Shown one piece after another: positions 26,567 through 64,000 of a DNA stretch of 64,000 bases; positions within the stretch are counted from its first letter, which is position 1, and the number at the start of each line of letters is the position of its first letter. This stretch comes from Nakamurella flava (GTDB lineage: Bacteria; Actinomycetota; Actinomycetes; Mycobacteriales; Nakamurellaceae), in NCBI RefSeq assembly GCF_005298075.1, contig NZ_SZZH01000001.1:1488001-1552000 (forward strand). The letters are read 5' to 3'. A program made the position numbers and the translations under genes. The notes under the pieces were generated by a model. That model made no database searches. It saw nothing but the letters and a program-made list of their open reading frames with translations, and was not told where the DNA came from.

Positions 26567-26992
26567 ATGGCCCCGACCGCCACCGACCACATCCACGACG
26601 AGGTCCGCGAACTCGTCCGCCGCCGCGGCATCGACCCCATCGTCGACCACCGATCCATCCGCCACCTCATCGACGAAGTCATCGGCCACTACGAGGAACG
26701 GGTCCCCGTCTCGGCCCTGCCCCCACTCATCGACCGCGACGCCGCCGTCCGCCACGTCTTCGACGCCCTCGCCGGATTCGGCCCCCTGCAGCGCCACTTC
26801 GACGACCCCACCGTCGAAGAGATCTGGATCAACCAACCCGGCCGCGTCTTCGTCGCCCGCCGCGGACGCTCCGAACTCACCACCATCGTCCTGACCTCCG
26901 ACGAAGTCCGCGACCTCGTCGAACGCATGCTCAAACCCTCCGGACGACGCCTGGACCTCTCCAGCCCGTTCGTCGACGCGACTCTCTCATAG
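26567..26992 (+). pseudogene. tadA: Interrupted tadA/cpaF pilus ATPase gene, 5' part
   Basis: The first 137 codons of a Tad/Flp pilus secretion ATPase, then four foreign codons and a TAG. The N-terminal domain is normal: LIDEVIGHYEERVP, DALAGFGPLQRHFDDP and EEIWINQPGRVFVARRG. The sequence breaks off in LDLSSPFVDA, just before the family continues LPDGSRLHAVIP, which is found 17.5 kb away at 44452. Joining 26979 to 44452 restores the frame with no lost or extra base. Start ATG has GAGGAGG upstream. As it stands the fragment lacks the nucleotide-binding site and cannot be active. Confidence 0.93.
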
Positions 26993-27001
26993 ACGACAGG
27001 T
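26953..27001 (+). other. attL of element 1
   Basis: Left junction. The 5-bp core GACGC lies at 26975-26979, preceded by tadA codons and followed by the element half-site GACT at 26980-26983, eight variable bases, and GACGACAGGT at 26992-27001. The same half-site occurs inverted at the right end, equally spaced from the core. Confidence 0.85.
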
Positions 27002-27107: not shown

Positions 27108-28214
27108 ATGCCGTTTAGAATTACGCGAGAGAAGCGAGATTCTGCTTTCTTATTCCGAATTCGAGGCGGCATCTTGGAACCGATCATCGAGCCGGTCACG
27201 ACCCTCGTTCCCGCGTCCGTAGGCCCAGCGATCGCGACTCCGTCTCGTGACACCGCGCGACGGGTGGACATCATCCGCAGGCGGATGGCGGACAGCTCCT
27301 TGCTCGCCTACGAAGCCGACTGGAACCACTTCACCGAGTGGTGCGCCGTCGCCGGCCACTCCCCAGTCCCGGCGAGCGAGGACGCGCTGCTCGACTACAT
27401 CGACTTCTGCACTGGCCCGAATGCCCGCAGCACGGCGACCCGGTGCCCGCCGAAGTCCGCACCGCTGTCGCTCTCCTCGATCCGTCGGCGCCTCGCCGCG
27501 ATCACGTTCGCCCACAACGCGGCGGGACTCCCCCTCCCCGCCTATCCCATCGTCAAGGACCGACTCGGTGTCGCGGAGCGGGAGATCGGGACGGCGAAGC
27601 GACAGGCCCGTCCAATCACCCAGGTGCAGCTGATCCAGGTTCTCAGTCTCCAACCGGACTCCCCCGCCGGCCGTCGGAATCGCGCGCTCCTGCTCCTCGG
27701 GTTCACCACCGGCCTCCGCCGAGCCGAACTCGTCGCCCTGGACCGCGGCCACGTGTCGTTCCTCGACGAGGGCGTCTCGGTCTTCGTTCCGAAGAGCAAG
27801 ACCGATCAGGGCCGCAACGGTAGAACCGTGTCGGTCCCCTACAGCCCCAACGCCGCCACATGTACGGGGACTGCGCTCCGCCGATGGTTCGCCGTCCTCG
27901 GTGACAGCGACGGTGCAGTGTTTCGACGGGTGCTCAAGGGCGGCACCGTGTCAGCGCAGCGGCTCGCCCCCGACGCGGTGTCCCTCCTGGTGAAGACCTC
28001 GATGTCGCAGCTCGGCGAGGACCCGACGGAGTACTCCGCACACTCCCTCCGCGCCGGTCTCGCCACCGCACTCGCCCGAGAAGGGGTCCCGTTGCCCCAG
28101 ATCATGGGCCAGACCGGGCACGCCGACGTGCACACCGCGATCGGCTACGTCAGGCTAGGTACGGCGTTCCGGGACAACCCCGTCGCCAAGCTCGGCGGCC
28201 TGTACCCGTCGTAG
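27108..28214 (+). CDS. Tyrosine recombinase (phage integrase family)
   Basis: A 368-residue site-specific recombinase. An N-terminal core-binding domain (about 55-150, SLLAYEADWNHFTEWC) is followed by the catalytic domain with R204 (TTGLRRAEL), K231 (KSKTDQ), H312 and R315 (AHSLRAG), H338 (QTGHADVH) and nucleophile Y347 (AIGYVRLG). All residues needed for activity are there. It sits 107 bp inside the left junction, but that junction bears serine-recombinase architecture, so this enzyme probably did not place the element. It may resolve multimers or mark an older insertion. GGGGG lies upstream of the ATG. Confidence 0.9.
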   Translation: MPFRITREKRDSAFLFRIRGGILEPIIEPVTTLVPASVGPAIATPSRDTARRVDIIRRRMADSSLLAYEADWNHFTEWCAVAGHSPVPASEDALLDYIDFCTGPNARSTATRCPPKSAPLSLSSIRRRLAAITFAHNAAGLPLPAYPIVKDRLGVAEREIGTAKRQARPITQVQLIQVLSLQPDSPAGRRNRALLLLGFTTGLRRAELVALDRGHVSFLDEGVSVFVPKSKTDQGRNGRTVSVPYSPNAATCTGTALRRWFAVLGDSDGAVFRRVLKGGTVSAQRLAPDAVSLLVKTSMSQLGEDPTEYSAHSLRAGLATALAREGVPLPQIMGQTGHADVHTAIGYVRLGTAFRDNPVAKLGGLYPS

Positions 28215-28238: not shown

Positions 28239-29591
28239 ATGGACGAAGAACAGCAGTTCCCGGCACCTCTCGTTCATCCGCTCGGATGGCCGGCTCCTGG
28301 CACCTCGACCACCGTCTACCGGGGGCCGCTCCTCGGCGTCATGCCTGATGGTGCAGAGGTCACGTTCCCTGGCGAACTTGCACTCACGTGGGAGCTCAAG
28401 CCGCTCGCCACATGGAGTCCCGCGGATCCCAACCTCGACGCCAGGCTTATCGACGACGTTCCCGGGCCAGCCGGAGGCACCGAGTTCTTGACTGCCAACT
28501 CGCCGATGCCACTCGATCACCCTGGTGAAAGTCGAGTCCGCAACCTCCGCGCTCACACGCAGCTCGGCGACGGAGCCGATCTTGACCGCGTGGTCTTCTT
28601 CCTCGGTACCGGGTTGCAGAGCGCACGGTGGGATCGGATTCAGTCCCCCGACGACCCTCACCCGGTGCGCGGCAGACTAACCATTCCCTTTGCCGAGTGG
28701 ATCATCACGATCGACCAGAGCAGCGACGAAGCGATGTTCAAGCGACTGAGACGCCAGAACGGAGGATGGGCGTTCACCCACCTCTGCGAGATCGTCCGCG
28801 CCGACGGAGCCAATTTCGACGCGTCAGTCGCGCTACCCATCGTGCAGGGGATCGCGACTGCCTTCACCTTCACCGTCGGACGAGAGATCAACGCCGCTCT
28901 CACCACCGGGACCTATAAGGGTGAGATCCGGTGGGCCTACTTCGGCAAGCCGGGCTTCACCGGGTGGAGCACGCCGTGGTCGTGGTCCGACACCCAGCGC
29001 GACGCCGAGCAGCTCCGGGAGCTACTCCCCCTCTGGCTCGCCAAGTGGCGAGACCCGGACCACCGACACACCCTCAGTTTGGCGGCGGGGTACCACTTCG
29101 TAGCGAATCGGACCGAGCCAGTCGATTCCGGGCTAGCTACCGCGATCTCAGCCCTCCTGTTGCTAGCTGAGCACACCGATCCCGGTCAGTTCGCCGCCGA
29201 CCCATCGGTATCCCAACAGGTGCGCAGCTTTCTCAGTCGGTGCAGCATCGACGTACAGCCGAGGCCGAACTACCCCGAACTTGAAAAGGCCGGAATCGAC
29301 TACTTCGCCGCCGAGCTCGCGAAGCCGCGCAGCGGCAAGAAACCCTGGTTGAAGGTGCCCCCCGACTCCGTCGACAGCGTCGTGTACGCCCGGAACGTCG
29401 TCGTCCATCCAAAGGCCCGCGAGCGGTCTACCGTTGCCAACCGAGTCTGGCACCAGGCGTGGGCCCTCTCCACCGAGTGGCTCACCCTGGGAATCCTCCA
29501 CTGGCTTGGCTACACCGGCACCTACGCGTCTCGCACCCTTGCGGGAGTCCGATGGCACGGCGCCGTCGAGCAGGTCCCTTGGGCACCGTAG
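28239..29591 (+). CDS. Large protein with C-terminal ApeA-like HEPN domain
   Basis: A 450-residue soluble protein. The N-terminal 250 residues are beta-rich and not recognised. The C terminus from about 295 is helical and holds the HEPN ribonuclease motif R385-x4-H390 (YARNVVVHP), followed by WALSTEWLTLGILHWLGYTG, the usual closing helix of ApeA-like HEPN proteins. That family includes abortive-infection RNases. It starts 24 bp after the tyrosine recombinase and is convergent with the AlbA_2 gene. A defence role is inferred from the domain and the mobile context; the domain call rests on motif pattern only. Confidence 0.65.
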   Translation: MDEEQQFPAPLVHPLGWPAPGTSTTVYRGPLLGVMPDGAEVTFPGELALTWELKPLATWSPADPNLDARLIDDVPGPAGGTEFLTANSPMPLDHPGESRVRNLRAHTQLGDGADLDRVVFFLGTGLQSARWDRIQSPDDPHPVRGRLTIPFAEWIITIDQSSDEAMFKRLRRQNGGWAFTHLCEIVRADGANFDASVALPIVQGIATAFTFTVGREINAALTTGTYKGEIRWAYFGKPGFTGWSTPWSWSDTQRDAEQLRELLPLWLAKWRDPDHRHTLSLAAGYHFVANRTEPVDSGLATAISALLLLAEHTDPGQFAADPSVSQQVRSFLSRCSIDVQPRPNYPELEKAGIDYFAAELAKPRSGKKPWLKVPPDSVDSVVYARNVVVHPKARERSTVANRVWHQAWALSTEWLTLGILHWLGYTGTYASRTLAGVRWHGAVEQVPWAP

Positions 29592-35194: not shown

Positions 35195-35444
35195 CAGCCG
35201 CACCCTCCGGCAATGACCGCCGCTGCTCCTGGTCGTTCTCCTACAGCCATCCTGGCCAACCCGATCACACCCCAGCGCATCCACCGATCATGTCACCGGC
35301 TCCCCCGCTACTGCCGACCGAGAGGACACCGCGTGGAGGCGGCGGCAGCCAAGTCGAGTAGGCCGCGGTTGGTCGCCACTCGCCGGGGGGACTCGAAGCC
35401 AGACACGAACCGTCTCGATGGGGTCGGTCACTACCGTTTTCGGC

Positions 35445-35696
35445 ATGTCCTCCCCCACGCCGCCGGCCAGCCCAAGGTTCCTCACCCTCACCCAGGCAGC
35501 GGAGGAACTCAACGTAACGATGAGCCAGATCTACGCGCTCGTCCGCTCCGGGGACCTCGTCGGCATCCAGATCGGCGGCCGTAACCAGTGGCGCGTCGAG
35601 CGGTCCAAGCTCGAGGAGTACATCGACCGCGCGTATCAGCGGACCGCCGAGAACCTCAAGGACCTCCCGGCGGCCCTACCCGGCGACACCGCGTAG
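35445..35696 (+). CDS. Excisionase-like helix-turn-helix protein
   Basis: 83 residues with the MerR-type HTH_17 pattern FLTLTQAAEELNVTMSQIYA, RSGDLVGIQIGGRNQWRV and a closing SKLEEYID helix. Such proteins act as recombination directionality factors or small regulators in integrative elements. For serine recombinases the directionality factor need not be of this type, so the partner could equally be the tyrosine recombinase. The start is placed at 35445; the reading frame opens at 35418. Confidence 0.75.
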   Translation: MSSPTPPASPRFLTLTQAAEELNVTMSQIYALVRSGDLVGIQIGGRNQWRVERSKLEEYIDRAYQRTAENLKDLPAALPGDTA

Positions 35697-35736: not shown

Positions 35737-36744
35737 CTATTCGCTTGACTCCTCGCCCGGCAGTCCTGACGGGCGACCCTGCATTCTAGCGAAGTCCCTG
35801 ATCAGCGTATCGATGTGCGAACCCGACACTTGAATCTCGCGATCCCTCCTCTTGGGAACCTCCCTCCCCGCAAACGGTTGATCGTCTGGGTGATGGAACG
35901 CCTCTCGACGGGCGTTGCGCAGCGTGTAGTCGTTGATCAGTCGAGCCCGCGCTGAATTACCGGCGAGCCGTTGGTCCTCTCCCTCCCCTCCGACCTTGCC
36001 CAGTACCAGGCAGGCCCGACGCCCCACAGGCACGATCAGTTCGCGCGCCATTCCGAATCCTGCATTTGAGTAAAAACCCGTGGTCTCATCCGACACACAG
36101 ATGACGGGAGAGTCTGACGTTCCCAGCACCTTGCGCTCCCAAAGAATCAGGGCCCAGGGTCCGCGACCCATCACCAGGTTCGTCGTCCCTTCGAGGCCGT
36201 CGAGGAGGTAGCGCAGGTGCGCGTGTCGATCCACAGCGAAGGTGTCCGCGGTAACCAAGGCGTTCGCCCTCAGCTCTTCAACTTGAGCGTCGGAGGCGTC
36301 GTCGGACAGACCCAACATCTCGCGAACTTGGTCGGTCGACATCACCCCCAACTCCAACTTCCCGATGGAGCGGGTGATCTCCTCGATTCCTGACCGGGTC
36401 GACTGCGAGCGGAGGTACTGCAGAGCGACGAAGGTTGCCAACCAGAACCGGTCTTCGTCGCTCGGAGGCCACGCGCCCTGGTCCACCACCCTGGTCAGCG
36501 CGGGAGCGATGTCTGCCTCGATCCCCGCGAGTGCGTCCTCTAACGCGTCGGGCCGCAGCTCGGGGTGCTCCAAGCGGTAGAAGTCCGTCTGAACGGTGGC
36601 GTCCTTCGTCGGGATCGTTCTCACTTCACCGCCCCCGAGCGGAACGCGGGTAATCATCCTCTTCTCGTCCGCGAACCTCCGGAGGTAGAAGTTCGGTACG
36701 ACGTGGTGCCGCCGCTTGACGGGGCCTTCCCCGTCAGTCGACAT
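35737..36744 (-). CDS. DUF4238 family protein
   Basis: A 335-residue soluble protein opening with the DUF4238 signature RRHHVVPNFYLRRFAD and continuing with WLATFVALQYLRSQ and SDSPVICVSDE. The family is widespread in mobile and defence-rich regions, but its function is not established. The start overlaps the end of the upstream gene by 11 bp, with GAGG upstream, so the two are coupled. Confidence 0.78.
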   Translation of the reverse strand: MSTDGEGPVKRRHHVVPNFYLRRFADEKRMITRVPLGGGEVRTIPTKDATVQTDFYRLEHPELRPDALEDALAGIEADIAPALTRVVDQGAWPPSDEDRFWLATFVALQYLRSQSTRSGIEEITRSIGKLELGVMSTDQVREMLGLSDDASDAQVEELRANALVTADTFAVDRHAHLRYLLDGLEGTTNLVMGRGPWALILWERKVLGTSDSPVICVSDETTGFYSNAGFGMARELIVPVGRRACLVLGKVGGEGEDQRLAGNSARARLINDYTLRNARREAFHHPDDQPFAGREVPKRRDREIQVSGSHIDTLIRDFARMQGRPSGLPGEESSE

Positions 36745-37558
36745 CGTCGTCGCCTCTCTCCTCTGCGGCCTTGAGGAAGGCATACACGGCCATCCCCGCG
36801 ACCGCGACGGTGGTCCCCAGGTCCGCGACGAAGTCCCCCGGCAAACGGTTCGTGGTGCCGGCCACCATCGTCGGCCAGGCGAAGGCGTGCGATACCCCGG
36901 AGTAGGTGTTGAAGATCCAAACGAGATGCTCTGACCGGGTAGTTGCGTGCTCCTCTTCCTCGCCGCCTGCTGCACGCATCATGTCCCCGACGACATCGGC
37001 CGCCAACTCGACCATCTCGATCTCGGTAAAAGCTCTTTTCCCCTCCGCCTGTAGCTCCGCGTGACGCCTCTCGTGAAGCTCTATCACCTGACGCGGGGGC
37101 ACCAGCGCGCGCAGTCTCTTGAACTCGGCGGCCCGCCGGTACAGATGGCCCAAGCTTCGGGACTCCTGCATCATCACCCGGAGGGTGTTCTCCCGAGCTT
37201 GCTCGACGTCATCCGGTCCGACGAGCACCAGCAGCCGACATGACGCCAGGAGCGCCGTCCGACACAGGATGGCCAGAGACTCCGGGCTCGTGGGCACGCC
37301 CGAGGTGATCAGTGTGGAAACGGTGTCCAGCGCCCCCCGCAATCCCGACACCGCGCACGCCATCGTTCGGCGGACGTCGACGTGGGGCTCGGGCAGGTCG
37401 GCGATCAGCCGGCCGATCTTGCTACCCGGCCGGTGCCAAATCTCGGGATCCGCCGCCACGTCATCGATCTGCTGACCGAGTTGCCGGATCTCCTCCAGCA
37501 CAACGAACAACCGCTCCCGCGCTCCGGGCTCATCCAGTCCTAGATCCATCACCATCAT
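36734..37558 (-). CDS. Helical protein with C-terminal membrane segment, partner of the DUF4238 gene
   Basis: 274 residues, almost all helical, with a HERRHAELQAEGKR segment, a TYSGVSHAFAW motif near 228 and a weak membrane segment (about 248-265, TTVAVAGMAVYAF). The family is not recognised. Overlap with the DUF4238 gene points to a two-gene module. The YSGVSHA segment recalls the closing part of some helical HEPN-like proteins, but no Rx4H motif is clear. Confidence 0.6.
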   Translation of the reverse strand: MMVMDLGLDEPGARERLFVVLEEIRQLGQQIDDVAADPEIWHRPGSKIGRLIADLPEPHVDVRRTMACAVSGLRGALDTVSTLITSGVPTSPESLAILCRTALLASCRLLVLVGPDDVEQARENTLRVMMQESRSLGHLYRRAAEFKRLRALVPPRQVIELHERRHAELQAEGKRAFTEIEMVELAADVVGDMMRAAGGEEEEHATTRSEHLVWIFNTYSGVSHAFAWPTMVAGTTNRLPGDFVADLGTTVAVAGMAVYAFLKAAEERGDDDVD

Positions 37559-42938: not shown

Positions 42939-44408
42939 CTACCGCGCCCAGGCTAGCTCTACCCGATCAGGGTCGAACCGCGGCCCGGACAGTCTTCCCC
43001 GCGCCGACGGCTTCACCCGGATCTCGGCGAACAACGCTCGAATCGTCAACGACCTCTCCGCCTGGGTCGACGCCGCCCATGCCTCGGAGGTCGGCACCGC
43101 CCGCTCGACTCGCCGCCGACCGAGTGTGATCGCGTCCAACTGCGCCTCGACCGCGGCGATCTCACTATTTACAGCACGCTGTCTGTCCACGATCTCCTCA
43201 ACGCGGAAGGCGCCGGATTCGGCGAGTAGGATGTGTTTCTTCGCCTTTTCCCGCAACCGCTGAATCTCCTCCTCCAGCGCCACCTGCAGCGAATCACTTG
43301 ACCGCTTCTCGACGATGATCGGTGGACCATCTCGGATCACGGTCTCCACCACCCCGAGAATGAATTCCTCGATGGCCGATGCACTCACCGCGACGCTTCC
43401 ACAGCCCCCGCCGCGGCCGGCCGATTGGCATTTATAGGTCGCCCGTGTCTTCAATCGACTAGGATTTTGAGCATCAATCTTGTCCGGGCTGAAGCCCATT
43501 TTCGAACCACATTTTGCGCACCGCAGGATGCCACTCAGCAGTGAACGCGGAGCCCTCATCGGTGTCGCTCCCCGTGTCGTCTGTCTAAAGACGGCCCTGA
43601 CCGCTTCCCATTGTTCCGTGGTCAGGATCGCAGGCCACACCGCCGGACTTATCCGCCCCGGAGGCCGCTCCTCACCGGTCACCTCACCCGCACGCCGCCG
43701 CTCTGCCCACTCCCGGGTTGCCTTCTCCGACCGGTATTCCCTCATCCCAATGACTCTGTATGACTTCAGCGCATTCTTGAGCGAAACCGCACGGGCTCCC
43801 CGGCCGGTGGCGTCGTTGAACTTTCGAGTCGCGGCATTCAGGCCCATCCCGGCGATGATCATCTCCGCCGCTTCGATCAAAGCCGCCGCCTCGACCGGAT
43901 CCACGGTGACACCGTCCGCCTCATATCCGATCGGGCGCTTGCCGCCGTGCCGCTGACCACGTTCCGCATTCGCTGAATACTTTGCAGCCAGCCTCTCGCT
44001 CTTGATCTGCATCTCCATCTGCGCAAAGGCAACCAGCACCTGAGCCAGCGTCCGACCCATCGGCGTGGAAAGGTCCAGCTCTTGGCCAGAAACCGTGACG
44101 ATTCGCAGCGGCCGACCCCCGAGGGAATCCAGAAGCGTCTGGAATTGGGCCACCTGCCGGTAACATCGGTCCAGCGCCCACGCCAAGATCATGTCCACCT
44201 CGCCGCGGTGCACCATCTCCAGCACCAGCGGCCATTCGGTCCGCGAATCAACCGTCTTGAAGGCGCTCACGTCGTTGTCAGATCGCACCGCTACGACATC
44301 AATCCCCCGCTCACGGGCCAGCTTCTCGCACGAGCGGATCTGCTCCCCCAAGTTGACGGCAAGCCCGTCCCTGTCTTGGCTGATCCGGCCGTAGATCACC
44401 GCCCGCAC
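42939..44408 (-). CDS. Large serine recombinase, integrase of element 1
   Basis: A 489-residue recombinase. The resolvase domain has nucleophile S10 (VIYGRIS) and the family blocks AWALDRCYRQVAQ and GRTLAQVLVAFAQMEMQ. A recombinase domain and a zinc ribbon follow (LRCAKCGSKMGF ... YKCQSAGRGGGCGS), then a coiled coil. It starts at a GTG with AGGAGGTGA upstream, only 38 bp from the crossover core at 44447, so its upstream DNA in the integrated state is the attR half-site and tadA. It should catalyse attP x attB integration; excision would need a directionality factor. This is the enzyme that best explains the insertion. Confidence 0.93.
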   Translation of the reverse strand: MRAVIYGRISQDRDGLAVNLGEQIRSCEKLARERGIDVVAVRSDNDVSAFKTVDSRTEWPLVLEMVHRGEVDMILAWALDRCYRQVAQFQTLLDSLGGRPLRIVTVSGQELDLSTPMGRTLAQVLVAFAQMEMQIKSERLAAKYSANAERGQRHGGKRPIGYEADGVTVDPVEAAALIEAAEMIIAGMGLNAATRKFNDATGRGARAVSLKNALKSYRVIGMREYRSEKATREWAERRRAGEVTGEERPPGRISPAVWPAILTTEQWEAVRAVFRQTTRGATPMRAPRSLLSGILRCAKCGSKMGFSPDKIDAQNPSRLKTRATYKCQSAGRGGGCGSVAVSASAIEEFILGVVETVIRDGPPIIVEKRSSDSLQVALEEEIQRLREKAKKHILLAESGAFRVEEIVDRQRAVNSEIAAVEAQLDAITLGRRRVERAVPTSEAWAASTQAERSLTIRALFAEIRVKPSARGRLSGPRFDPDRVELAWAR

Positions 44409-44421
44409 GGGCTCACCTCCT

Positions 44422-44475
44422 ACCTGTCGTCAAAGTAATAGTCGCAGACGCCCTGCTCCCCGACGGCAGCCGCCT
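44422..44475 (+). other. attR of element 1
   Basis: Right junction. The element half-site reads ACCTGTCGTC at 44422-44431, eight variable bases, AGTC at 44440-44443, GCA, then core GACGC at 44447-44451, followed directly by tadA codons (CCTGCTCCCCGAC). It mirrors attL base for base in spacing. Confidence 0.85.
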
Positions 44476-45283
44476 GCACGCCGTCATCCCGGACATCACG
44501 CGCGAGCACCTGTCGGTCAACATCCGGAAGTTCGTCGTGGCGGCCAACGGCTTGGATGATCTGGTGGCCCTGGGCACCCTGCCGCCGGCCGCGGCCCGCT
44601 TCCTGGAGGCCGCGGTGGTCGCCGGCCTCAACGTCATCGTCGCCGGGGGCACGCAGGCCGGGAAGACGACGCTGCTCAACACCCTCATCAACTCGGTGCC
44701 GGCCCGGGAACGGGTCATCACCTGCGAGGAGGTCTTCGAGCTCCGCCCCAACCTGCCGGACGTCGTCGCCATGCAGACGCGTCAAGCGAACCTGGAGGGC
44801 CACGGCGAGATCCGGCTGCGCCGGTTGGTCAAGGAAGCGCTGCGGATGCGCCCCAGCCGGATCGTCGTCGGCGAGGTCCGGCAGGAGGAATCCCTGGACC
44901 TGCTGATCGCCCTCAACAGCGGCCTGCCGGGTATGTGCTCGGTGCACGCCAACTCCGCCCGCGAGGCGGTGGTCAAGCTGTGCACCCTGCCGCTGCTGGC
45001 CGGCGAGAACGTGACCGCCGGGTTCGTCGTCCCGACCGTCGCGGCCTCGGTGGACCTGGTGGTCCACGTCGGCAGCGAGCCCAACGGGGCCCGCCGGGTC
45101 CGCGAGATCGTGGCCCTGCCCGGGCGCGTCGAGGGCGGGGTCGTCGAGACGGAGGACATCTTCACCACGCGGGACGGGGTGCTGACGCGCGCCCAGGGCT
45201 ACCCGCCGCACCAGGACCGGTTCGCCCGGCACGGCTACGACCTGACCGAGCTGCTGGAGGGTGGACGCCCGCAGCGCCGCTGA
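44452..45283 (+). pseudogene. tadA: Interrupted tadA/cpaF pilus ATPase gene, 3' part
   Basis: The remaining 276 codons of the ATPase plus the first-codon remainder. The nucleotide site is intact: Walker A VAGGTQAGKTT, the EEVFELRP and RLVKEALRMRPSRIVVGEVR blocks, and SVHANSAREAV. Joined to 26567-26979 it gives a 414-residue TadA with no frame error, which argues the gene was intact until recently and is kept by selection or reversible excision. It has no start of its own. The TPP riboswitch begins 87 bp after its stop. Confidence 0.93.
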
Positions 45284-56680: not shown

Positions 56681-57538
56681 ATGGGAGCACTCGTCGGCCT
56701 GCTCCTCGGTGTCGGTCTGCTCCTGGCGTGGACGGGCGTCACCCGCCGCAACCGTCCCGACCAACCGCGCCGTGATCACTTCCGCCGCACCCGCGAACAC
56801 CTGCACCAGGCCGGCCTGACGACCATCAGCCCGGGCCAACTCATTGCGCTGCAGGCACTCTCCCTGCTACTGATCGGGCTGTTGACCCTCCTGGTCACCA
56901 CTTCGGTCAGCGTCTCGACGCTGTTCGCCGTCGCGGGAGCCGCCCTGCCCCGCATGCTGGTCAACCGCCTGCGTCACCGCCGGCAGGCCGACCTCCGGGA
57001 GCTCTGGCCCGAGGTCGTCGACAATCTCACCTCCGGGGTGCGGGCCGGCCTGTCCCTTCCCGAAGCGCTGGCCGCCATCGGTACACGGGGACCCGAACAA
57101 CTGCGGGAGCCATTTCGGCAATTTGGCTCGGACTACCGCACGACGGGCCATTTCACCACCAGTCTCGATCGCCTGAAGAACGCCCTGGCCGACCCGGTCG
57201 GCGATCGGATCTGCGAATCGCTGCGCGTGGCCCGGGAGGTGGGCGGTACCGATCTCGGCCGGCTGCTGGCCACCCTGTCCGGGTTCCTCCGTGACGACGC
57301 CCGGACGCGCGCGGAACTGCTGGCCCGGCAGACGTGGTCGGTGAACGCGGCACGCATGGCGGTGGCCGCACCGTGGTTGGTGCTGCTGCTACTGGCCACC
57401 CAACCGACCACCCTGCAGGCCTACGACTCCCCGACCGGCACCGCCATCCTGGTCGGCGGGGCGGTGCTGTCGGTCGTCGCGTACCGCGTGATGATCCGGA
57501 TCGGGCGACTGCCGGAAGACCGGCGGGTGCTGCAGTGA
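56681..57538 (+). CDS. tadB: Tad/Flp pilus assembly protein TadB
   Basis: A 285-residue type II secretion F-domain membrane protein, part of the inner-membrane platform on which the TadA ATPase works. A first membrane segment (3-20) is followed by a pair near 55-95 and a C-terminal pair; the F-domain core is ELWPEVVDNLTSGVRAGLSL, LRVAREVGGTDLGRLL. The ATG at 56681 has GGAGGAGG upstream. tadC overlaps its stop by GTGA. tadA lies 11.4 kb away, which is unusual. Confidence 0.92.
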   Translation: MGALVGLLLGVGLLLAWTGVTRRNRPDQPRRDHFRRTREHLHQAGLTTISPGQLIALQALSLLLIGLLTLLVTTSVSVSTLFAVAGAALPRMLVNRLRHRRQADLRELWPEVVDNLTSGVRAGLSLPEALAAIGTRGPEQLREPFRQFGSDYRTTGHFTTSLDRLKNALADPVGDRICESLRVAREVGGTDLGRLLATLSGFLRDDARTRAELLARQTWSVNAARMAVAAPWLVLLLLATQPTTLQAYDSPTGTAILVGGAVLSVVAYRVMIRIGRLPEDRRVLQ

Positions 57539-58401
57539 CGGTCCTGGTCGGTGCGCTCCTCGGCGGGCTGGTGGCCGTCGGCGTGCTCGTCGCCGTCTTC
57601 GGTGCGCCCCCGATGCGTCGCACCACCCTGGCGGACCGCATCGCCCCCTACCTCAGCGACGCTCCACCCCCCTCGCGCCTGCTCACCGGCGACCCGTCGA
57701 CGGGCACCCGTTCCGCGCTCGTGGTCCTGCTGCGGCCTTTCGTCCGGGACACCGGACGTCTCATCGACCGGCTCCTCGGCGGACGTCAGTCGGTGGAGCA
57801 ACGGCTGGCTGCGCTCGGCTCGTCGCAGACGGTCGACGGCTTCCGCGTGGAGCAGGTGCTCTGGGGAGCCATGGGCGCCGGCGGCGCGATCGCGCTGAGT
57901 TTGCTGGCCGTGCTCTTCGGCCAGAGCAATCCACTCGCCCTGCTGCTGGTCATCGTGGTTGCGGCGGTCAGCGGCGTGCTGGCCCGCGACTGGTGGTTGA
58001 CGCGTGAGGTCGAGCGGCAGGACCGCGAGATCCTGGCCGAGTTCCCCGTCATCGCCGAGATGCTGGCCCTGGCGGTCGCCGCCGGCGAAGGACCGATCGG
58101 GGCACTCGACCGGATCACGACACTGGCCCACGGCCCGCTCATCGATCAGCTCTCCAGCGTGCTCGCCTCGGCCCGGTCGGGCACCCCGCTGCTGACGGCA
58201 CTGTCCGACCTGCGCGACCGCACCCGGCTGGAGCCGCTCGCCCGGTTCGTCGACGGCATGGCCGTGGCGATCGAGCGCGGCACCCCGCTGTCGGACGTGC
58301 TGCGGGCCCAGGCCGCCGACGCCCGCGCGGCAGCCAAGCGGGAGCTGCTCGAGGCCGGCGGCCGCCGGGAGATTGCGATGATGATGCCGGTCAATAGCTA
58401 G
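57535..58401 (+). pseudogene. tadC: Truncated tadC, interrupted by element 2
   Basis: 288 codons of TadC, the second membrane platform protein of the Tad pilus. It runs normally through AEFPVIAEMLALAVAAGEGP and RREIAMMMPV, where the family continues with a last membrane segment of the type VFLILPVTVLFA. Here NS and a TAG follow, and a serine recombinase begins 16 bp later. The loss removes the final membrane segment, so the protein is probably inactive. GTG start overlapping the tadB stop. Confidence 0.9.
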
Positions 58402-58416
58402 CCGTAATCTTTCTGC

Positions 58417-59811
58417 ATGACAGCTGACCTACCGGCCGGGATCTACGCGCGAATCTCATCCGACGATGAGGGCCTCGGCCTCGGCGTCCAACGTCAGATC
58501 ACCGACTGCCGGACGGAAGCCCAACGGCGGGGCTGGACTGTCACCAGCGAGTACGTCGACAACGACGTCAGCGCGACCCGATCCAAGGTCCGCCCCGAGT
58601 ACCAGCGGATGCTCCGTGACGTCGTCAACGGCCGAATCAAAGCCGTCGTGGTGTGGGACGTGGACCGCCTCACCCGCACCCCCCGCGAACTCGAGGACGT
58701 CATCGACCTCGCCGACCGCCAAGGCCTCGCGCTTGCGTCCGTCGGCGGAGACATCGACCTCTCCACCCCGCAGGGCCGACTGACCGCACGGCTCAAGGGC
58801 TCCGTCGCGCGCCACGAAACGGAACAGCAGTCCCGTCGGCTGCGTCGCAAGTTCGATGACCGAGCCGCGGAGGGCCGCCGGCACGGGCGTGTCCCGTACG
58901 GGTACGCCCCATCGGCCGACGGGCCGGACCAGCTCGACCCCCACCAGGCTGGGGTCATCGCCCTCGCCGCAAAAATGCTGCTCGCCGGCCAATCGCTGCG
59001 TGCTGTCACCGCCGAACTCAACCGGCGGGGTGAGCCGACCCCGCGGGGATCGGGTGTGTGGACATCGACTCAGCTGCGTCAGGTGCTGCTGCGTCCGCGG
59101 AATGCTGGCCTTCGCGTGCACCGAGGATCCGTGCTGGGCCCCGGCGACTGGCCCCCCGTCTATGACGTCGACGTGCACGACCGGGTGCTCGCCCTGCTGA
59201 CGGACCCGACCCGGCGAACGTCGCGCGGCGCGGAGCGAAAGCACTTGCTGTCTGGTCTGGCGATCTGCGGTCGGTGCGGGGACGACGACATCATCGTGAA
59301 TGTGGGCCGCAAGTCGAGGGGCAAGACGCAGCCACCCGCTTACGTGTGTCGGTCGTGCACGCGGGTCCGCCGAAAACAGGCCGCCGTCGACGAGGTTGTT
59401 GAAGGGGTGGTCGTGGCGCGGCTCCAGCTGCCTGATGCGCTGGCGGTGTTGGCGGCGGGTGATCCTTTGGTGGTCGAGTCGGCGAGGGCTGAAGCAGCTG
59501 CTCTGGAGGCTCGGCTCGGACTTGCGGCCGATCAGTTCGCTGACGGGGCGATTACCGGCGACCAGTTGCAGCGGATCTCCGCGAAGCTGCGTCCGCAGAT
59601 TGACCACGCGAAGGAGCGAATGAACGCCGCGATGCCGACCCCAGGGATGGCCGAGCTGGCCGGCGTCGACGCAGGGTCCCGGTGGAGCGTTGCGCCGTTG
59701 GAGGTTCGACGTGCTGTTATCGACGCGCTGTGCACCGTGACGATCATGCCGGCTGGGCCGGGGAAACCGTTCGACCCGGAATCCGTCCGCATTCAGTGGA
59801 GGTCATCATGA
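58417..59811 (+). CDS. Large serine recombinase, integrase of element 2
   Basis: A 464-residue recombinase with nucleophile S14 (GIYARISSDDEG), WDVDRLTRTPRELED, RLTARLKGSVARHETEQQSRR, a recombinase domain and a short zinc ribbon (LAICGRCG ... YVCRSC), then a coiled coil. It is clearly different in sequence from the element 1 enzyme. The ATG is about 20 bp from the junction, with no ribosome site or room for a promoter, so in the integrated state it relies on tadBC transcription. Its stop overlaps the next start in ATGA. Confidence 0.93.
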   Translation: MTADLPAGIYARISSDDEGLGLGVQRQITDCRTEAQRRGWTVTSEYVDNDVSATRSKVRPEYQRMLRDVVNGRIKAVVVWDVDRLTRTPRELEDVIDLADRQGLALASVGGDIDLSTPQGRLTARLKGSVARHETEQQSRRLRRKFDDRAAEGRRHGRVPYGYAPSADGPDQLDPHQAGVIALAAKMLLAGQSLRAVTAELNRRGEPTPRGSGVWTSTQLRQVLLRPRNAGLRVHRGSVLGPGDWPPVYDVDVHDRVLALLTDPTRRTSRGAERKHLLSGLAICGRCGDDDIIVNVGRKSRGKTQPPAYVCRSCTRVRRKQAAVDEVVEGVVVARLQLPDALAVLAAGDPLVVESARAEAAALEARLGLAADQFADGAITGDQLQRISAKLRPQIDHAKERMNAAMPTPGMAELAGVDAGSRWSVAPLEVRRAVIDALCTVTIMPAGPGKPFDPESVRIQWRSS

Positions 59812-60260
59812 CCCGCCGCCGAATCACGGTGGTTTGCGACCGCCACGAACCAGCTGCACTGATCGGGGTGCTCTTTCCGCCCACTCGTGGTCCCGCGAGT
59901 CAGGAGGAACTGACGGCGGCCGTCCAACAATGGATCAGCCTGTTCAGTTGGACCGAACCCAACCTTCCAGCGGACGAAGCTCTCCAGAAGGCGGAGCGAT
60001 TGGCTCGGAAGAACGAACGCGCGCAAACCGAGATCACGTACGAGTCGAACCGGGACCGCCGCACGAGGGCAGGGACGTTCAGGACGACCGTCCGTGACGG
60101 CATCTACGCCGAGACTGGTCGAGACAACCAGCGCTACTTCGTCTTTCGGTGTAAGCGATGCGGTCCGAGGATGAGCAAGACCGTTCGCGATAGTCGGTTG
60201 GTAGAGATCCTGAGCAGCCTCGGCGCGCCGGAGGACCGAGTGTTGCTGTCCGCCCTCTAA
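59808..60260 (+). CDS. Hypothetical protein with C-terminal CxxC
   Basis: 150 residues, MTRRRITVVCDRHEPAALIG, a helical middle and FRCKRCGPRMSKTVRDSRL near the end, half of a zinc site. It overlaps the recombinase stop by ATGA, with GGAGG upstream inside that gene, so it is coupled to the integrase. Function unknown; a role with the integrase is possible. Confidence 0.65.
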   Translation: MTRRRITVVCDRHEPAALIGVLFPPTRGPASQEELTAAVQQWISLFSWTEPNLPADEALQKAERLARKNERAQTEITYESNRDRRTRAGTFRTTVRDGIYAETGRDNQRYFVFRCKRCGPRMSKTVRDSRLVEILSSLGAPEDRVLLSAL

Positions 60261-60381
60261 CGCATGTAGCCTTTCGCCTACAAGGGAATAGGTCCGCCGG
60301 AAGGGCCTCACGTACTCCGGGTAGCGCGTCCCACCGATCACGGGAAGACGCGGTATCTCTCCGCACCCGGAGGCGGACCCT

Positions 60382-60594
60382 GTGGCATGGACCCACACTC
60401 GCAGCGAACTCGGCAACGCCATCAAATTGGGCGCCGACGAAAAGACTGTCGCCGATCTTCGCAGACAGCTTCGCGCTGACAAGCTCGCCGAACACATCAA
60501 GAAGGTCGTCGATCAAGCTCCGCCGCTGACGGCTGAACAGCGCGACCGGCTCGCCGCACTCCTCCGCGCTGGCGGTGGCAATGCCGCAGCCTGA
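60382..60594 (+). CDS. Small helical hypothetical protein
   Basis: 70 residues from a GTG start, MAWTHTRSELGNAIKLGADE, followed by VADLRRQLRADKLAEHIKKV, almost wholly helical. Small proteins of this pattern precede replication genes in actinobacterial elements. CGGAGGCGG lies upstream. Confidence 0.6.
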   Translation: MAWTHTRSELGNAIKLGADEKTVADLRRQLRADKLAEHIKKVVDQAPPLTAEQRDRLAALLRAGGGNAAA

Positions 60595-61186
60595 GAACGA
60601 GGAAACCCGCCCCGTGGTCAGCGGGACGGGCCTCGAAAATGACCTGCTGGCGGGCGGGGTCGAAGTCAATGATACGGCCTCAGACCTCACCGATCAGATT
60701 GCCGACGCGGCCGAACTGACCGTGGCGTCAGCGCTCCTGCTCTCGCCGACCGTCGATCACGCGAAGCGACTACTCGCCCTCGCCGCAGTCCCCGTGAGCA
60801 GCGATGACCGCGTCGAGTGGATCCCGGCCGCCGCATTCACACACCCCACGGCGAAGTTCGTGGCTGACGTCTCCACCCGACTGGTCGAGGACCTCGTGCC
60901 CCCCGCTCCCGTCACCGTCGTCACCTACGCCATGCAGCACAAGATGAGTCTGCCTGACCGTCATACGCCCATCGCGGCGTTGTCGAAGCTGGCAGCGGCG
61001 AGCCACGTGACCGCGGCCGCAGATTGGGCCGCTCGGGAGGTCCGCAACAACTACTTCCGCAGGGCGATCGCGACTGCTGGACAGCGGATCTCGAGTGCCG
61101 CGTGGGCTGACACAGCCGAGATGGCCGAGCTGGTCAAGCGGGAGATCGCGGCGATCACCGACGCGGTCGAGGCGGTGAAGGGATGA
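60581..61186 (+). CDS. Hypothetical helical protein upstream of the replication ATPase
   Basis: 201 residues without recognised domain. The region from about 40 is helical, with SALLLSPTVDHAKRLLALAA and DWAAREVRNNYFRRAIATAG. It overlaps the upstream gene by 14 bp and the ATPase gene by ATGA. A GTG two codons earlier is an alternative start. A role in replication is suggested by position only. Confidence 0.6.
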   Translation: MPQPENEETRPVVSGTGLENDLLAGGVEVNDTASDLTDQIADAAELTVASALLLSPTVDHAKRLLALAAVPVSSDDRVEWIPAAAFTHPTAKFVADVSTRLVEDLVPPAPVTVVTYAMQHKMSLPDRHTPIAALSKLAAASHVTAAADWAAREVRNNYFRRAIATAGQRISSAAWADTAEMAELVKREIAAITDAVEAVKG

Positions 61187-62154
61187 GCGCTCCCATCCAG
61201 CTCCCCACTCCGCAGCGTGGGATCTCGCATCGCGTGCTTGACCGCAGTGCGCTCGCTGATCTGCCCACCCCCTCCCCGCTGATCGCCCGGACGATCGACC
61301 TTGGAACGGTCGGTGTTGTGGCCGGCTACTGGGGCACGCTGAAGTCGTTCATCGGCCTCTCCTGGGCCTCCAGTGCCGCCACAGGCTTCGCCTGGGATGG
61401 TCGGGCCGTTGAACCCTGCCGCGTTCTGTACGTGGCTGCTGAGGGCGCTTACGGCCTACACCAACGGTTGTCGGCCTGGGAGCAGCACCGTCGTACCGTC
61501 ATCCCTTCGGCGGAGTTCCTGACGTTGCCCGAGCCGGTGAACCTGGGCAGCGAGGACTCGGTGAACCAGGTCATCGAGTTCGTGGCGTCTGAGCGGATCC
61601 GCTTCGCCTGGTTCGACACCCTCGCGAAGTGCATGCCGGGCATGGACGAGAACTCGTCCCGGGACATGGGCGTCGCCGTCTCCAGCCTGTACCGCATTCG
61701 AGCGGCGACGGGCGACGGCGCCGTCGCCGCCATTCACCACACCGGCAAGGACAAGACCACCATCCGCGGGTCGTCCGCTCTCGAGGCGGGTGTGGACTGG
61801 GTTTACAAAACCGAGGGCGACGCGAACGGCATCCAGCTCAGCCGGACGAAACGCAAAGACGGACCTGTCGAAGACGTCCACCGGCTCGCGTTCCAAGCCG
61901 TTGATGGGACCGATTCAGGGGTAGTCGTCCAGTCCCAAGAGGGCTTGGGACTACGTCCCAACGCGGACGAGCTTTTGTCCCACTTCCAGTCCCACTTTTC
62001 TTTGACCGGGGCGACCCCGACGCAGCTGTTCGAGGTGTCGGACATGCCGAAGAGCAGCTTCTACCGGGCTCTGTCTGAGCTGGTCAGCGCCGGTGTGATC
62101 CAGAATCACGGCACTGACAAGCGGGCCTTCTACAAGGAGGCCAGTCATGGCTAG
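61183..62154 (+). CDS. RepA-like AAA/RecA-fold replication ATPase
   Basis: A 323-residue DnaB/RepA-type ATPase. The P-loop is AGYWGTLKSF (47-56), with Leu in place of the usual Gly before Lys54; variants with a residue other than Gly here are known in this actinobacterial family. Walker B is IRFAWFDTLAKC, and AAIHHTGKDKTTIRGSSAL is the conserved sensor block. A C-terminal winged helix (PTQLFEVSDMPKSSFYRALS) probably binds DNA. It likely unwinds the origin of the element; GTCCCA repeats lie in its last 220 bp and just after. Confidence 0.8.
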   Translation: MSAPIQLPTPQRGISHRVLDRSALADLPTPSPLIARTIDLGTVGVVAGYWGTLKSFIGLSWASSAATGFAWDGRAVEPCRVLYVAAEGAYGLHQRLSAWEQHRRTVIPSAEFLTLPEPVNLGSEDSVNQVIEFVASERIRFAWFDTLAKCMPGMDENSSRDMGVAVSSLYRIRAATGDGAVAAIHHTGKDKTTIRGSSALEAGVDWVYKTEGDANGIQLSRTKRKDGPVEDVHRLAFQAVDGTDSGVVVQSQEGLGLRPNADELLSHFQSHFSLTGATPTQLFEVSDMPKSSFYRALSELVSAGVIQNHGTDKRAFYKEASHG

Positions 62155-62237
62155 TCCCACAGTCCCAAACGGTCCCACTGATTCTGGTACCAGTCTCACC
62201 AGTCCCCATTCCTTAAGAATGGGACTGGGACTGGGAC
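61932..62237. repeat. GTCCCA iteron-like cluster, candidate origin of element 2
   Basis: Eleven copies of one hexamer in 306 bp. GTCCCA starts at 61932, 61955, 61977, 61989, 62154, 62162 and 62172; its complement TGGGAC starts at 61946, 62220, 62226 and 62232. Near matches GTCTCA and GTCCCC lie at 62193 and 62202. A hairpin pairs CCATTC (62206-62211) with GAATGG (62217-62222) around CTTAA, and its stem extends into flanking copies. The cluster spans the end of the RepA-like gene and the start of the next. Confidence 0.75.
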
Positions 62238-62461
62238 CCGGTACAGAGGTCGGTTTCGAGCACCGGGATTCGTGCTCTCGGCCGCCGCTCCGGTCGTCGA
62301 CTGACGTCTTCGATCGGTCGCGGGTGCGGTGGCGGTGCCCCGAGTGCGGTCGGGCGGTCTACGGGGGCACGCGCTCACCGCGCACCCAGGGTCTAAGCAG
62401 TGCTGACCCCATCAAGGGTGTCGATCTGCCCTACCCCCCTGCCGGCGGTGATGTGGCGTGA
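62147..62461 (+). CDS. Small protein with CxxC, repeat-derived N terminus
   Basis: 104 residues overlapping the ATPase stop by 8 bp. The first 35 residues (PTVPNGPTDSGTSLTSPHSL) are simply the translation of the GTCCCA repeats, so selection there may act on the DNA. The C-terminal half has RWRCPECGRAVYGG, one zinc knuckle. Function unknown. Confidence 0.5.
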   Translation: MASPTVPNGPTDSGTSLTSPHSLRMGLGLGPGTEVGFEHRDSCSRPPLRSSTDVFDRSRVRWRCPECGRAVYGGTRSPRTQGLSSADPIKGVDLPYPPAGGDVA

Positions 62462-62661
62462 CCACCGTCGCCGACCTGCTCACTGCCGACTCCTGCACGG
62501 CCGCATGCATTGCCGCCACCACTTCAGCGCGCCGCTGCCAGTGCCCGTGTGGCGGTCTGCATCACGGCCTGCTCGCCCACGCGTCCGTCGACGCGCTCCT
62601 CGAAGCCCGGTCGTCCGGGCTTACCTCCCTCCCAGATTTGGAGATCCTCAATGCCCAGTGA
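62458..62661 (+). CDS. Small Cys-rich protein
   Basis: 67 residues from a GTG start that overlaps the previous stop in GTGA. CTAACIA and CQCPCGGLHHG form a possible metal site, and the C terminus is helical. Function unknown. Confidence 0.55.
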   Translation: MTTVADLLTADSCTAACIAATTSARRCQCPCGGLHHGLLAHASVDALLEARSSGLTSLPDLEILNAQ

Positions 62662-62824
62662 CCGCGGACCCCTCCCCCTCAAGCAGCACTCCGAGTGGTG
62701 CTCCGAACCGAACCTTGTTTTCCACCAGCAAATCCGACCCTGGTTGCCCGTGATCGGCCACTGCCCCGAGTGCGGAGCCGCTGCCGTGGTCGCCGGCCCC
62801 GACGTCAAGCGGGCCACCCGATGA
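62651..62824 (+). CDS. Small zinc-ribbon-like protein
   Basis: 57 residues, MPSDRGPLPLKQHSEWCSEP, with HCPECGAAAVV giving a CxxC knuckle. It overlaps the previous gene by 11 bp and the next by ATGA. Function unknown. Confidence 0.5.
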   Translation: MPSDRGPLPLKQHSEWCSEPNLVFHQQIRPWLPVIGHCPECGAAAVVAGPDVKRATR

Positions 62825-63105
62825 CCCCCCAGGAACGTCGCGCGATGTTGGCCCGCGTCATCGCGTGCGAGATCGCGTTCCAGTCCCACGACCGTGCCGC
62901 CGTGGACAACTATCTGCTGGACCTCAAGTCGACGGTCTCGGACAAGGCGTGGCCTGCCCTGTCGATCGAGGTCATCCGGCAGCTCACGCTCCAGGTCGTT
63001 AAGCCACTTCTTCACCGGGACGACGCCGCGGGTGGCCAGTTCCGCCGGCAGCTGGAGATCGCCGCAGCGCAGGGACGGGCGGCCACCAAGACGGACCACG
63101 AGTGA
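62821..63105 (+). CDS. Small helical hypothetical protein
   Basis: 94 helical residues, MTPQERRAMLARVIACEIAF, without recognised domain. Its start and stop both overlap neighbours by four bases, so it is part of one transcript. Confidence 0.6.
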   Translation: MTPQERRAMLARVIACEIAFQSHDRAAVDNYLLDLKSTVSDKAWPALSIEVIRQLTLQVVKPLLHRDDAAGGQFRRQLEIAAAQGRAATKTDHE

Positions 63106-63647
63106 ACACCCCCGAGCAGGGCGTCAAAGTCACCGGGACTGCCTCCGCAGCGTCGGTTCCCGGATCCATGGCAGCACGTCGTCTGAGTGCAGCTGCCAGC
63201 GCCCCTCGGTCCGCCGGTACCCCGGGAACTCCCGGGGGCCGGCGGGCCCTGCCTGTGGAATATGAGCGCTTCGTTCACGGCCCCGGAGTTCTGGTGCCGG
63301 ACAGGCTCGCTGCGTTCTTGGTCAGCCGCCTCAAGCTCGAGCAGCTCGCGACCCAGGTCCGAGGTGTCGACGTCGAGGCCGATGCCGTCCTCCTCTCGCT
63401 GATCTTCGCCGGGACCCGTTACCTCACAGCACGTTCCCCAAAGGGAACGCCGACTGCATCTGCAAGGGAACAGGTGTCAAGCTCGGACTGGCTGACAACA
63501 AGGGCAGTAGCCACCCAGCTCGGCATGACCGTGCGGGGGGTGCGAATGGCAATCAGCGCCGGCCGGCTCGAAGGCGAGAGAGTCGACTCCCGCTGGCGAG
63601 TCAGGCGCGGCGAAGTCGAGCAGTACCGATCGAGAAGGACGGCATGA
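63102..63647 (+). CDS. Helix-turn-helix (excisionase-type) protein
   Basis: 181 residues from a GTG. A disordered Ala/Ser/Gly start, a helical middle (LAAFLVSRLKLEQLATQVRG), and a C-terminal HTH_17 domain: DWLTTRAVATQLGMTVRGVR, AISAGRLEGERVDSRWRV, EVEQYR. It may be the directionality factor of the element or a regulator. Confidence 0.7.
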   Translation: MNTPEQGVKVTGTASAASVPGSMAARRLSAAASAPRSAGTPGTPGGRRALPVEYERFVHGPGVLVPDRLAAFLVSRLKLEQLATQVRGVDVEADAVLLSLIFAGTRYLTARSPKGTPTASAREQVSSSDWLTTRAVATQLGMTVRGVRMAISAGRLEGERVDSRWRVRRGEVEQYRSRRTA

Positions 63648-63648
63648 C

Positions 63649-63801
63649 ATGGAGAAACCCGAGCACAGCGCAACGGCGCCCATCGTTGGAATGCGCATGA
63701 CCGACCGGGCGACGGCCGAGCGCGACGGCCTGAAGATCCTCGGCCAGTCGGATGACAAGACCGTCATCGTGGCCGCCTACCAGGAGGGCACACAGGCATG
63801 A
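63649..63801 (+). CDS. Very small hypothetical protein
   Basis: 50 residues, MEKPEHSATAPIVGMRMTDR, then ATAERDGLKILGQSDDKTVI. It starts 1 bp after the HTH gene stop and overlaps the next start by ATGA. Function unknown. Confidence 0.5.
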   Translation: MEKPEHSATAPIVGMRMTDRATAERDGLKILGQSDDKTVIVAAYQEGTQA

Positions 63802-64000
63802 GCATCCGATCAGCTGGCCCTGCGGCGGTTCCCACTGCCGAGGAGCTGGAGAAGTGGCAGAACCTTTGGTCCCGAGTGTGCGTGGAGCGTGACGAAGCCC
63901 TCGACCGACTCGCTCTGGCGGAAGCCCGGATCGGCGGCCTCCACCAGAGGGTCACGGATATCGGAAGCGCAGCCAACGCCGACAGCCAGCTGTCGGGCGC
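63798..64000 (+). CDS. Hypothetical coiled-coil protein, cut by the window edge
   Basis: 67 codons visible, MSIRSAGPAAVPTAEELEKW, then a coiled coil (VCVERDEALDRLALAEARIG). It starts in the ATGA overlap with the previous gene. Family unknown. Confidence 0.5.
   Translation, partial: MSIRSAGPAAVPTAEELEKWQNLWSRVCVERDEALDRLALAEARIGGLHQRVTDIGSAANADSQLSG

Follow-up and report, generated by a model that had tools for sequence, protein, structure and literature searches.

Ends of an element inserted in tadA of Nakamurella flava rebuild a probable large serine integrase attP, with further such insertions in Flp-pilus genes of its order

Introduction

The tadA/cpaF gene of Nakamurella flava, which encodes the ATPase of the Flp pilus, is split by an insertion, here called element 1, and the locus raises the question as to which enzyme inserted the element and whether its two ends, read as a circle, rebuild the attachment site of that enzyme. 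Based on the letters of a 64,000-nucleotide stretch of DNA (the window), an earlier note had proposed that the ends restore a perfectly symmetric 52-bp attP-like site with the architecture of a large serine integrase attP. We examined the junctions, the rebuilt joint and the recombinases of element 1, and compared them with related insertions in other genomes of the order.

Results

The 5' fragment of tadA (26567-26992, plus strand) carries gene sequence as far as a GACGC core at 26975-26979, beyond which the frame enters element 1 and stops at a TAG codon (26990-26992). A second GACGC core marks the other junction (44447-44451), and the 3' fragment, which starts there (44447-45283, plus strand), is in frame with the 5' fragment once the flanks are joined, giving a continuous 414-aa TadA/CpaF. 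In all 16 same-genus genomes the site is empty, 63 nt (codons 130-150) running through with neither gaps nor inserted bases, and in 13 of the 16 the encoded residues are identical to those of the joined site, DLSSPFVDALLPDGSRLHAVI. Since tadA is whole when the flanks are joined and the site is empty in these 16 genomes, we place the insertion of element 1 at codon 137 of tadA and its length at 17,472 bp. The 5-bp GACGC that the earlier note had reported for both junctions is indeed present at each of them; its further claim that the boundary is pinned to the base did not stand, as the breakpoint is ambiguous by sequence identity within GACGC and the predicted crossover dinucleotide, GA (26975-26976), was chosen by the symmetry of the attP.

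When the two ends of element 1 are joined, they give a 52-bp pseudo-palindrome of the form ACCTGTCGTC-N8-AGTCGCAGACGCGACT-N8-GACGACAGGT, in full ACCTGTCGTC AAAGTAAT AGTCGC AG|AC GCGACT CTCTCATA GACGACAGGT, centred on the GA inside the shared GACGC. The 22-bp half-site arms, ACCTGTCGTC-N8-AGTC, match exactly on the left (26980-27001, minus strand) and on the right (44422-44443, plus strand), with the identical spacing that had been described; the inner inverted block, taken earlier as 4 bp beside the 10-bp outer one, extends to 6 bp (AGTCGC). Over the outer and inner blocks together, the two half-sites agree at 16/16 positions. The symmetry is nevertheless not perfect: about GA, 19 of the 26 half-site positions are symmetric, the 8-bp spacers match at 3/8 positions and the 4 bp at the centre lack symmetry. 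The other in-register core dinucleotides, AC, CG and GC, gave 6, 6 and 9 matches against 19 at GA, and the values for all in-register dinucleotides tried other than GA ranged from 2 to 9. As a control, window positions with a common 5-bp core were paired at random 200,000 times and the joints scored at the best of four centres; at least 19 matches were reached in 10 of these draws. For the attB of element 1, symmetry is low at GA (5/21) and highest one base to the left (10/21), which speaks against the attP reading.

No third exact copy of the arm (0 mismatches) was found in the window or in the 4.84-Mb genome. With up to 3 mismatches the arm pattern occurred 7 times in the window, against 9.65 expected by chance, and with up to 2 mismatches it occurred 62 times in the genome, against 183 for a reversed control pattern. 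The search of genomes for the arm sequence that had been suggested earlier found paired copies only at the ends of element 1. Outside the host, single copies were detected in two of 397 genomes of the order (G004 and G222) and at nine places in viral contigs; because none of them is paired, we rejected them as real sites and regard them as chance matches.

Close to the right arm, element 1 encodes a 489-aa large serine recombinase (LSR; 42939-44408, minus strand), the proposed integrase of this attP, with a start codon whose last base, 44408, lies 13 bp short of the right arm and 38 bp short of the right core. Its frame is open, without internal stops, and the protein carries an N-terminal resolvase catalytic domain (Pfam Resolvase, PF00239, 4.2e-23), together with a recombinase domain (Recombinase, PF07508, 1.1e-06) and a zinc ribbon (Zn_ribbon_recom, PF13408, 1.8e-11) that both score over their curated cut-offs. 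Comparison with PHROG gave the phage integrase family phrog_95 (5.4e-80), and comparison with PDB gave a structurally solved integrase of 500 aa (9iu2, E 1.8e-17), perhaps Bxb1 integrase, which has the same length. The stretch YGRISQDRD aligns to the same region of the 9iu2 chain, and its serine, near residue 10, is presumably the catalytic one. The NCBIfam identities XisF and Ccr were discarded, their scores being far under the curated cut-offs.

Relatives of this enzyme were distant in every collection searched. Among genome contigs a single distant match (25%) was found and among viral contigs none, the genome-contig and phage pattern scans being sensitive to close relatives only. Identity to phage enzymes was 28-32% among the 15 listed of 675 records and below 60% in all 675, and identity to plasmid-encoded enzymes was 24-34% among the 15 listed of 125 records; across the 397 genomes of the order, the best-scoring match was 36% identical, with values up to 37% over shorter stretches. 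Genome contigs, phages, plasmids, viral contigs and the 397 genomes yielded no sibling insertion of the integrase. As no close relatives of the integrase were found, the attP/attB pair stands without a second copy for comparison.

Element 1 carries further genes of interest. A tyrosine recombinase, either a passenger or a rival integrase, lies at its left end (27108-28214, plus strand; Pfam Phage_integrase, 2.1e-17), and had one weak match (G252, 29%, E 2.8e-4) in the 27 regions fetched from other genomes that are described below. An excisionase-like helix-turn-helix protein (35418-35696, plus strand; TIGR01764; PHROG excisionase and regulator phrog_66) is a candidate directionality factor. 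The cargo protein at 28239-29591 contains an RNVVVH stretch, which resembles a HEPN RNase motif; searches of Pfam, PADLOC, PHROG and NCBIfam gave no match to this protein. A DUF4238 protein is encoded at 35737-36975 (Pfam, 2.6e-36; weak PADLOC match to DUF4238-Pers, 1.5e-05); PADLOC, applied to 10 proteins, gave only this weak match and a chance-level match to LeoBC.

The host genome has both tadA and tadC interrupted, the latter by element 2. The truncated tadC (57535-58398, plus strand) is cut near its 3' end by this 14.4-kb element, which occupies 58387-64000 and continues beyond the window to a right end near G000:C1:1560809. Element 2 encodes its own LSR (58417-59811, plus strand; start codon assigned by eye), and the centre of its rebuilt attP reads TTGACC-CC-GGTCAA. 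The same part of tadC is cut in three other genomes, seen from both sides in G007, from the left side in G092 and from the right side in G001.

Among the matches listed for the 397 genomes sampled from the order, fragments of tadA begin or end at several codons. LSR elements were found in tadA (G027, G039a, G060, G068, G080, G087, G185, G291, G331, G343, G351 and G355), in a tadA paralogue (G039b) and, together with element 2, in tadC (G001, G007 and G092). The tad-inserted elements other than element 1 enter near codons about 150, 205-213, 233-240 and 300 of tadA, or at the 3' end of tadC, and their enzymes are about 25-34% identical to that of element 1 over the aligned parts. An LSR matching the integrase of element 1 or element 2 was present in 18 of the 27 fetched regions (14 with tadA or its paralogue, 4 with tadC), a proportion that is not a rate, since these regions had been picked for a split-looking tadA or tadC or a nearby LSR. 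The nine regions without an LSR match include the far end of the G343 insertion, whose near end has one.

A less selected sample consisted of all 27 LSR loci that the element 1 integrase retrieved as query at E ≤1e-20 from 101 genomes, the two elements of the window included, with matches 26 to 37% identical to the query; it is biased, since the enzyme used as query belongs to a tadA insertion. Twelve of these loci adjoin tadA, its paralogue or tadC: seven lie at tadA fragments (one of them G039b, which is only 47% identical to tadA and therefore probably a paralogue), one at a gene distantly similar to tadA (G006a, 42%, E 3e-5), and the remaining four at tadC. A tadA match at L014 (E 0.036) was dropped because it is located inside the recombinase. 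Three more loci (L006, L008 and L025) have a com-like frame upstream, separated from that of the recombinase by 20 to 37 bp, and the genes concerned are of ComEC type (PF03772), of ComM type (Mg chelatase, PF01078) and ComEA-like, with SLBB and helix-hairpin-helix domains; as one side only is visible at each, their interruption is probable rather than seen. At the G020 locus a TadE/G-like gene (PF13400) lies about 500 bp from the LSR. Contact with tad or com genes was thus found at 15/27 loci, or 16 with the TadE/G neighbour, and at 13 or 14 of 25 when the window's two elements are left out. The remaining 11 loci comprise seven at HNH/DUF222 genes, one at an SSB gene and three without assignment. 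HNH/DUF222 genes are another recurrent neighbour, located upstream of the recombinase (L004, L007, L010, L014, L016, L018 and L020); these calls were made by eye, with Pfam DUF222 confirmed for G053 (L004) only and G077 the weakest.

Pairwise identities, computed without a tree for those 19 of the 30 recombinases that passed an extraction filter, placed the tad-inserting enzymes in several groups: G185 with G291 (83%), G039a with G039b (66%), G027 with G343 and G355 (59-64%), and three tadC enzymes together (60-66%). The recombinases of element 1, G068 and G087 are each less than 40% identical to their best match. These separate identity groups suggest that tad genes were taken up as targets several times.

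The tadA gene is also split near codon 150 in G151 (L121/L122) and G315 (L125/L126), with a 12-bp junction identity, GTCATCCC(G/C)GAC, and CTGACCTGC repeats nearby. No serine recombinase was found at these two splits, so that another integrase type may perhaps use tadA as well.

According to Rutherford and colleagues (PMC3783163), the motif for the zinc domain occupies positions 16-24 of the A118 attP half-site and is displaced by 5 bp towards the centre in attB. We therefore scored matches between attP and attB at 17 shifts (-4 to +12), setting positions 16-26 of each attP half against each attB half, with the centre GA fixed beforehand from attP symmetry alone. For element 1, shift 5 was the best of the 17, with 22/44 matches; of the 46,408 positions of the joined window, 489, counting the site, reach this score. 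Among six centres the score was highest at GA, the other five giving 7 to 18.

The same comparison was summed over 12 elements, namely element 1 and the 11 others with both ends readable (10 in tadA, 1 in tadC), whose anchors were set by eye according to the codon register of the tad genes. At shift 5 the sum was 219, and the 16 other shifts gave 101-155; when host positions were resampled 100,000 times, 219 was never reached (mean 132, sd 11.5). With element 1 excluded, the sum of 197 was likewise reached in 0/100,000 resamplings (mean 121, sd 10.7). An earlier nine-element version, to which G331, G343 and G185 were later joined with anchors set by eye, had given 174 at shift 5 versus 76-120. 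Individually, 5 of the 12 elements peak at shift 5 (element 1, element 2, G068, G027 and G351) and seven peak elsewhere. The set omits G060, which has no clear in-register crossover; G039a, G039b, G001, G007 and G092, for which both ends were not worked out; and G163, G052, G140 and the codon-150 group (G151, G315, G252, G287 and G244), which have no LSR match. G046 was rejected as a split gene, being a simple frame break. The element 1 pair fits the 5-bp motif shift of LSR sites, in a test that is noisy for any one element.

Discussion

Based on these comparisons, the 52-bp joint is in our estimate, at a probability of about 0.92, the attP of the large serine integrase encoded at 42939-44408. 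The LSR architecture proposed in the earlier note is supported by the three-domain enzyme at the right arm, the 16/16 empty sites and the 5-bp shift. GA is likely the crossover dinucleotide, as the note had also predicted, being the core dinucleotide of highest symmetry and the best centre in the shift test.

The main competitor of this enzyme is the tyrosine recombinase of the left end, which would have inserted element 1 itself, the symmetry then being a tyrosine integrase core/arm pattern. The start of its gene lies about 130 bp from the left core, its match to Phage_integrase spans positions 6-168 of 172, and the codon-150 insertions with their 12-bp junction identities show tadA split where no LSR was found. 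Tyrosine recombinase core sites, however, consist of a 6-8-bp overlap flanked by core-type inverted repeats, whereas the junctions of element 1 share a core over 5 bp only and the inverted blocks of the joint lie 4 bp (inner) and 32 bp (outer) apart. As the LSR-specific 5-bp shift also speaks against it, we consider insertion by the tyrosine recombinase very unlikely. Even less credit is due to the idea that the inverted repeat arose by chance and the true junction lies elsewhere. Joints of equal symmetry do arise by chance, if at the rate of the random draws given above, and the arm pattern is present, unpaired, in two other genomes and in nine viral-contig stretches; yet the symmetric centre falls within a core that was defined by tadA homology, the joined site is an uninterrupted gene in every same-genus genome compared, and the shift test draws on attB and not on the symmetry of attP.

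A different question is whether the attP is real and element 1 a relic that is no longer mobile. The circular joint of element 1 is absent from the genome assembly and no close relatives were found, in favour of a relic; against it stand the intact integrase frame and the full agreement of the half-site blocks, and we regard loss of mobility as unlikely, with more weight than either of the two preceding alternatives.

If the LSR of the right end inserted element 1 into tadA, one enzyme subunit would bind each 26-bp half-site, the recombinase domain reading the inner AGTCGC block and the zinc-ribbon domain the outer ACCTGTCGTC block. The enzyme would then cut at the central GA and exchange strands with an attB in tadA whose outer motif sits 5 bp closer to the centre, and the excisionase-like protein may reverse the reaction.

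In Micrococcus luteus, natural transformation is reported to be abolished or largely inactivated when tad genes are deleted (PMC4322843). Given this need for Flp pili, the tad-inserted LSR elements may, by analogy, disable DNA uptake. They fit a pattern of mobile elements that break competence genes, described in PMC4774983 for comK, comYC, comFA and comM, where the advantage of such elements is argued to be that they escape curing by transformation. Elements landing in Flp-pilus or competence genes would gain in the same manner, their host no longer curing them by transformation, a step that lies outside the confidence figure given for the attP. The wider proposal is that the Flp/Tad pilus is the DNA-uptake machine in the host's order, that divergent LSR lineages independently target tadA, tadC and com genes, and that insertion blocks transformation and so protects the element; we put it forward tentatively, at slightly less than even chances. 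Alternatively, the gain from pilus loss could be escape from pilus-binding phages.

The analysis adds a computationally well-supported set of integrase, attP and attB with its own specificity, and 11 further rebuilt pairs in Flp-pilus genes. The attP alone is a known kind of site; the recurrent targeting of Flp-pilus genes by LSRs is the more interesting result, and it makes testable the evolutionary claim that mobile elements here repeatedly disrupt a pilus required for natural transformation in Micrococcus luteus. LSR targets are reported to be enriched for competence genes (PMC10083194). Among the titles listed in a targeted literature search, no paper on LSR attachment sites in Flp/Tad pilus genes was found, and a prior listing is possible in the supplementary tables of PMC10083194.

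In comparison with known systems, the enzyme of element 1 has the resolvase, recombinase and zinc-ribbon domains of the LSRs of A118/LI, Bxb1 and phiC31 type, and its site, like known LSR attPs, is about 50 bp long and pseudo-palindromic with a central dinucleotide. The outer motif lies at attP positions 17-26 in element 1 and at 16-24 in A118, shifted by 5 bp in attB in both (for A118, PMC3783163). Unlike the known phage LSRs, the integrase would have a specificity of its own, tadA codon 137. Element 1 resembles the other tad-inserted LSR elements, which have the LSR gene beside a tad fragment and whose 11 rebuilt pairs show the 5-bp shift as a group. As with competence-disrupting elements, divergent integrases insert into genes of a DNA-uptake system; in contrast to the comK, comYC, comFA and comM cases, the target here is the Flp/Tad pilus, whose role in uptake was shown in the actinobacterium Micrococcus luteus (PMC4322843).
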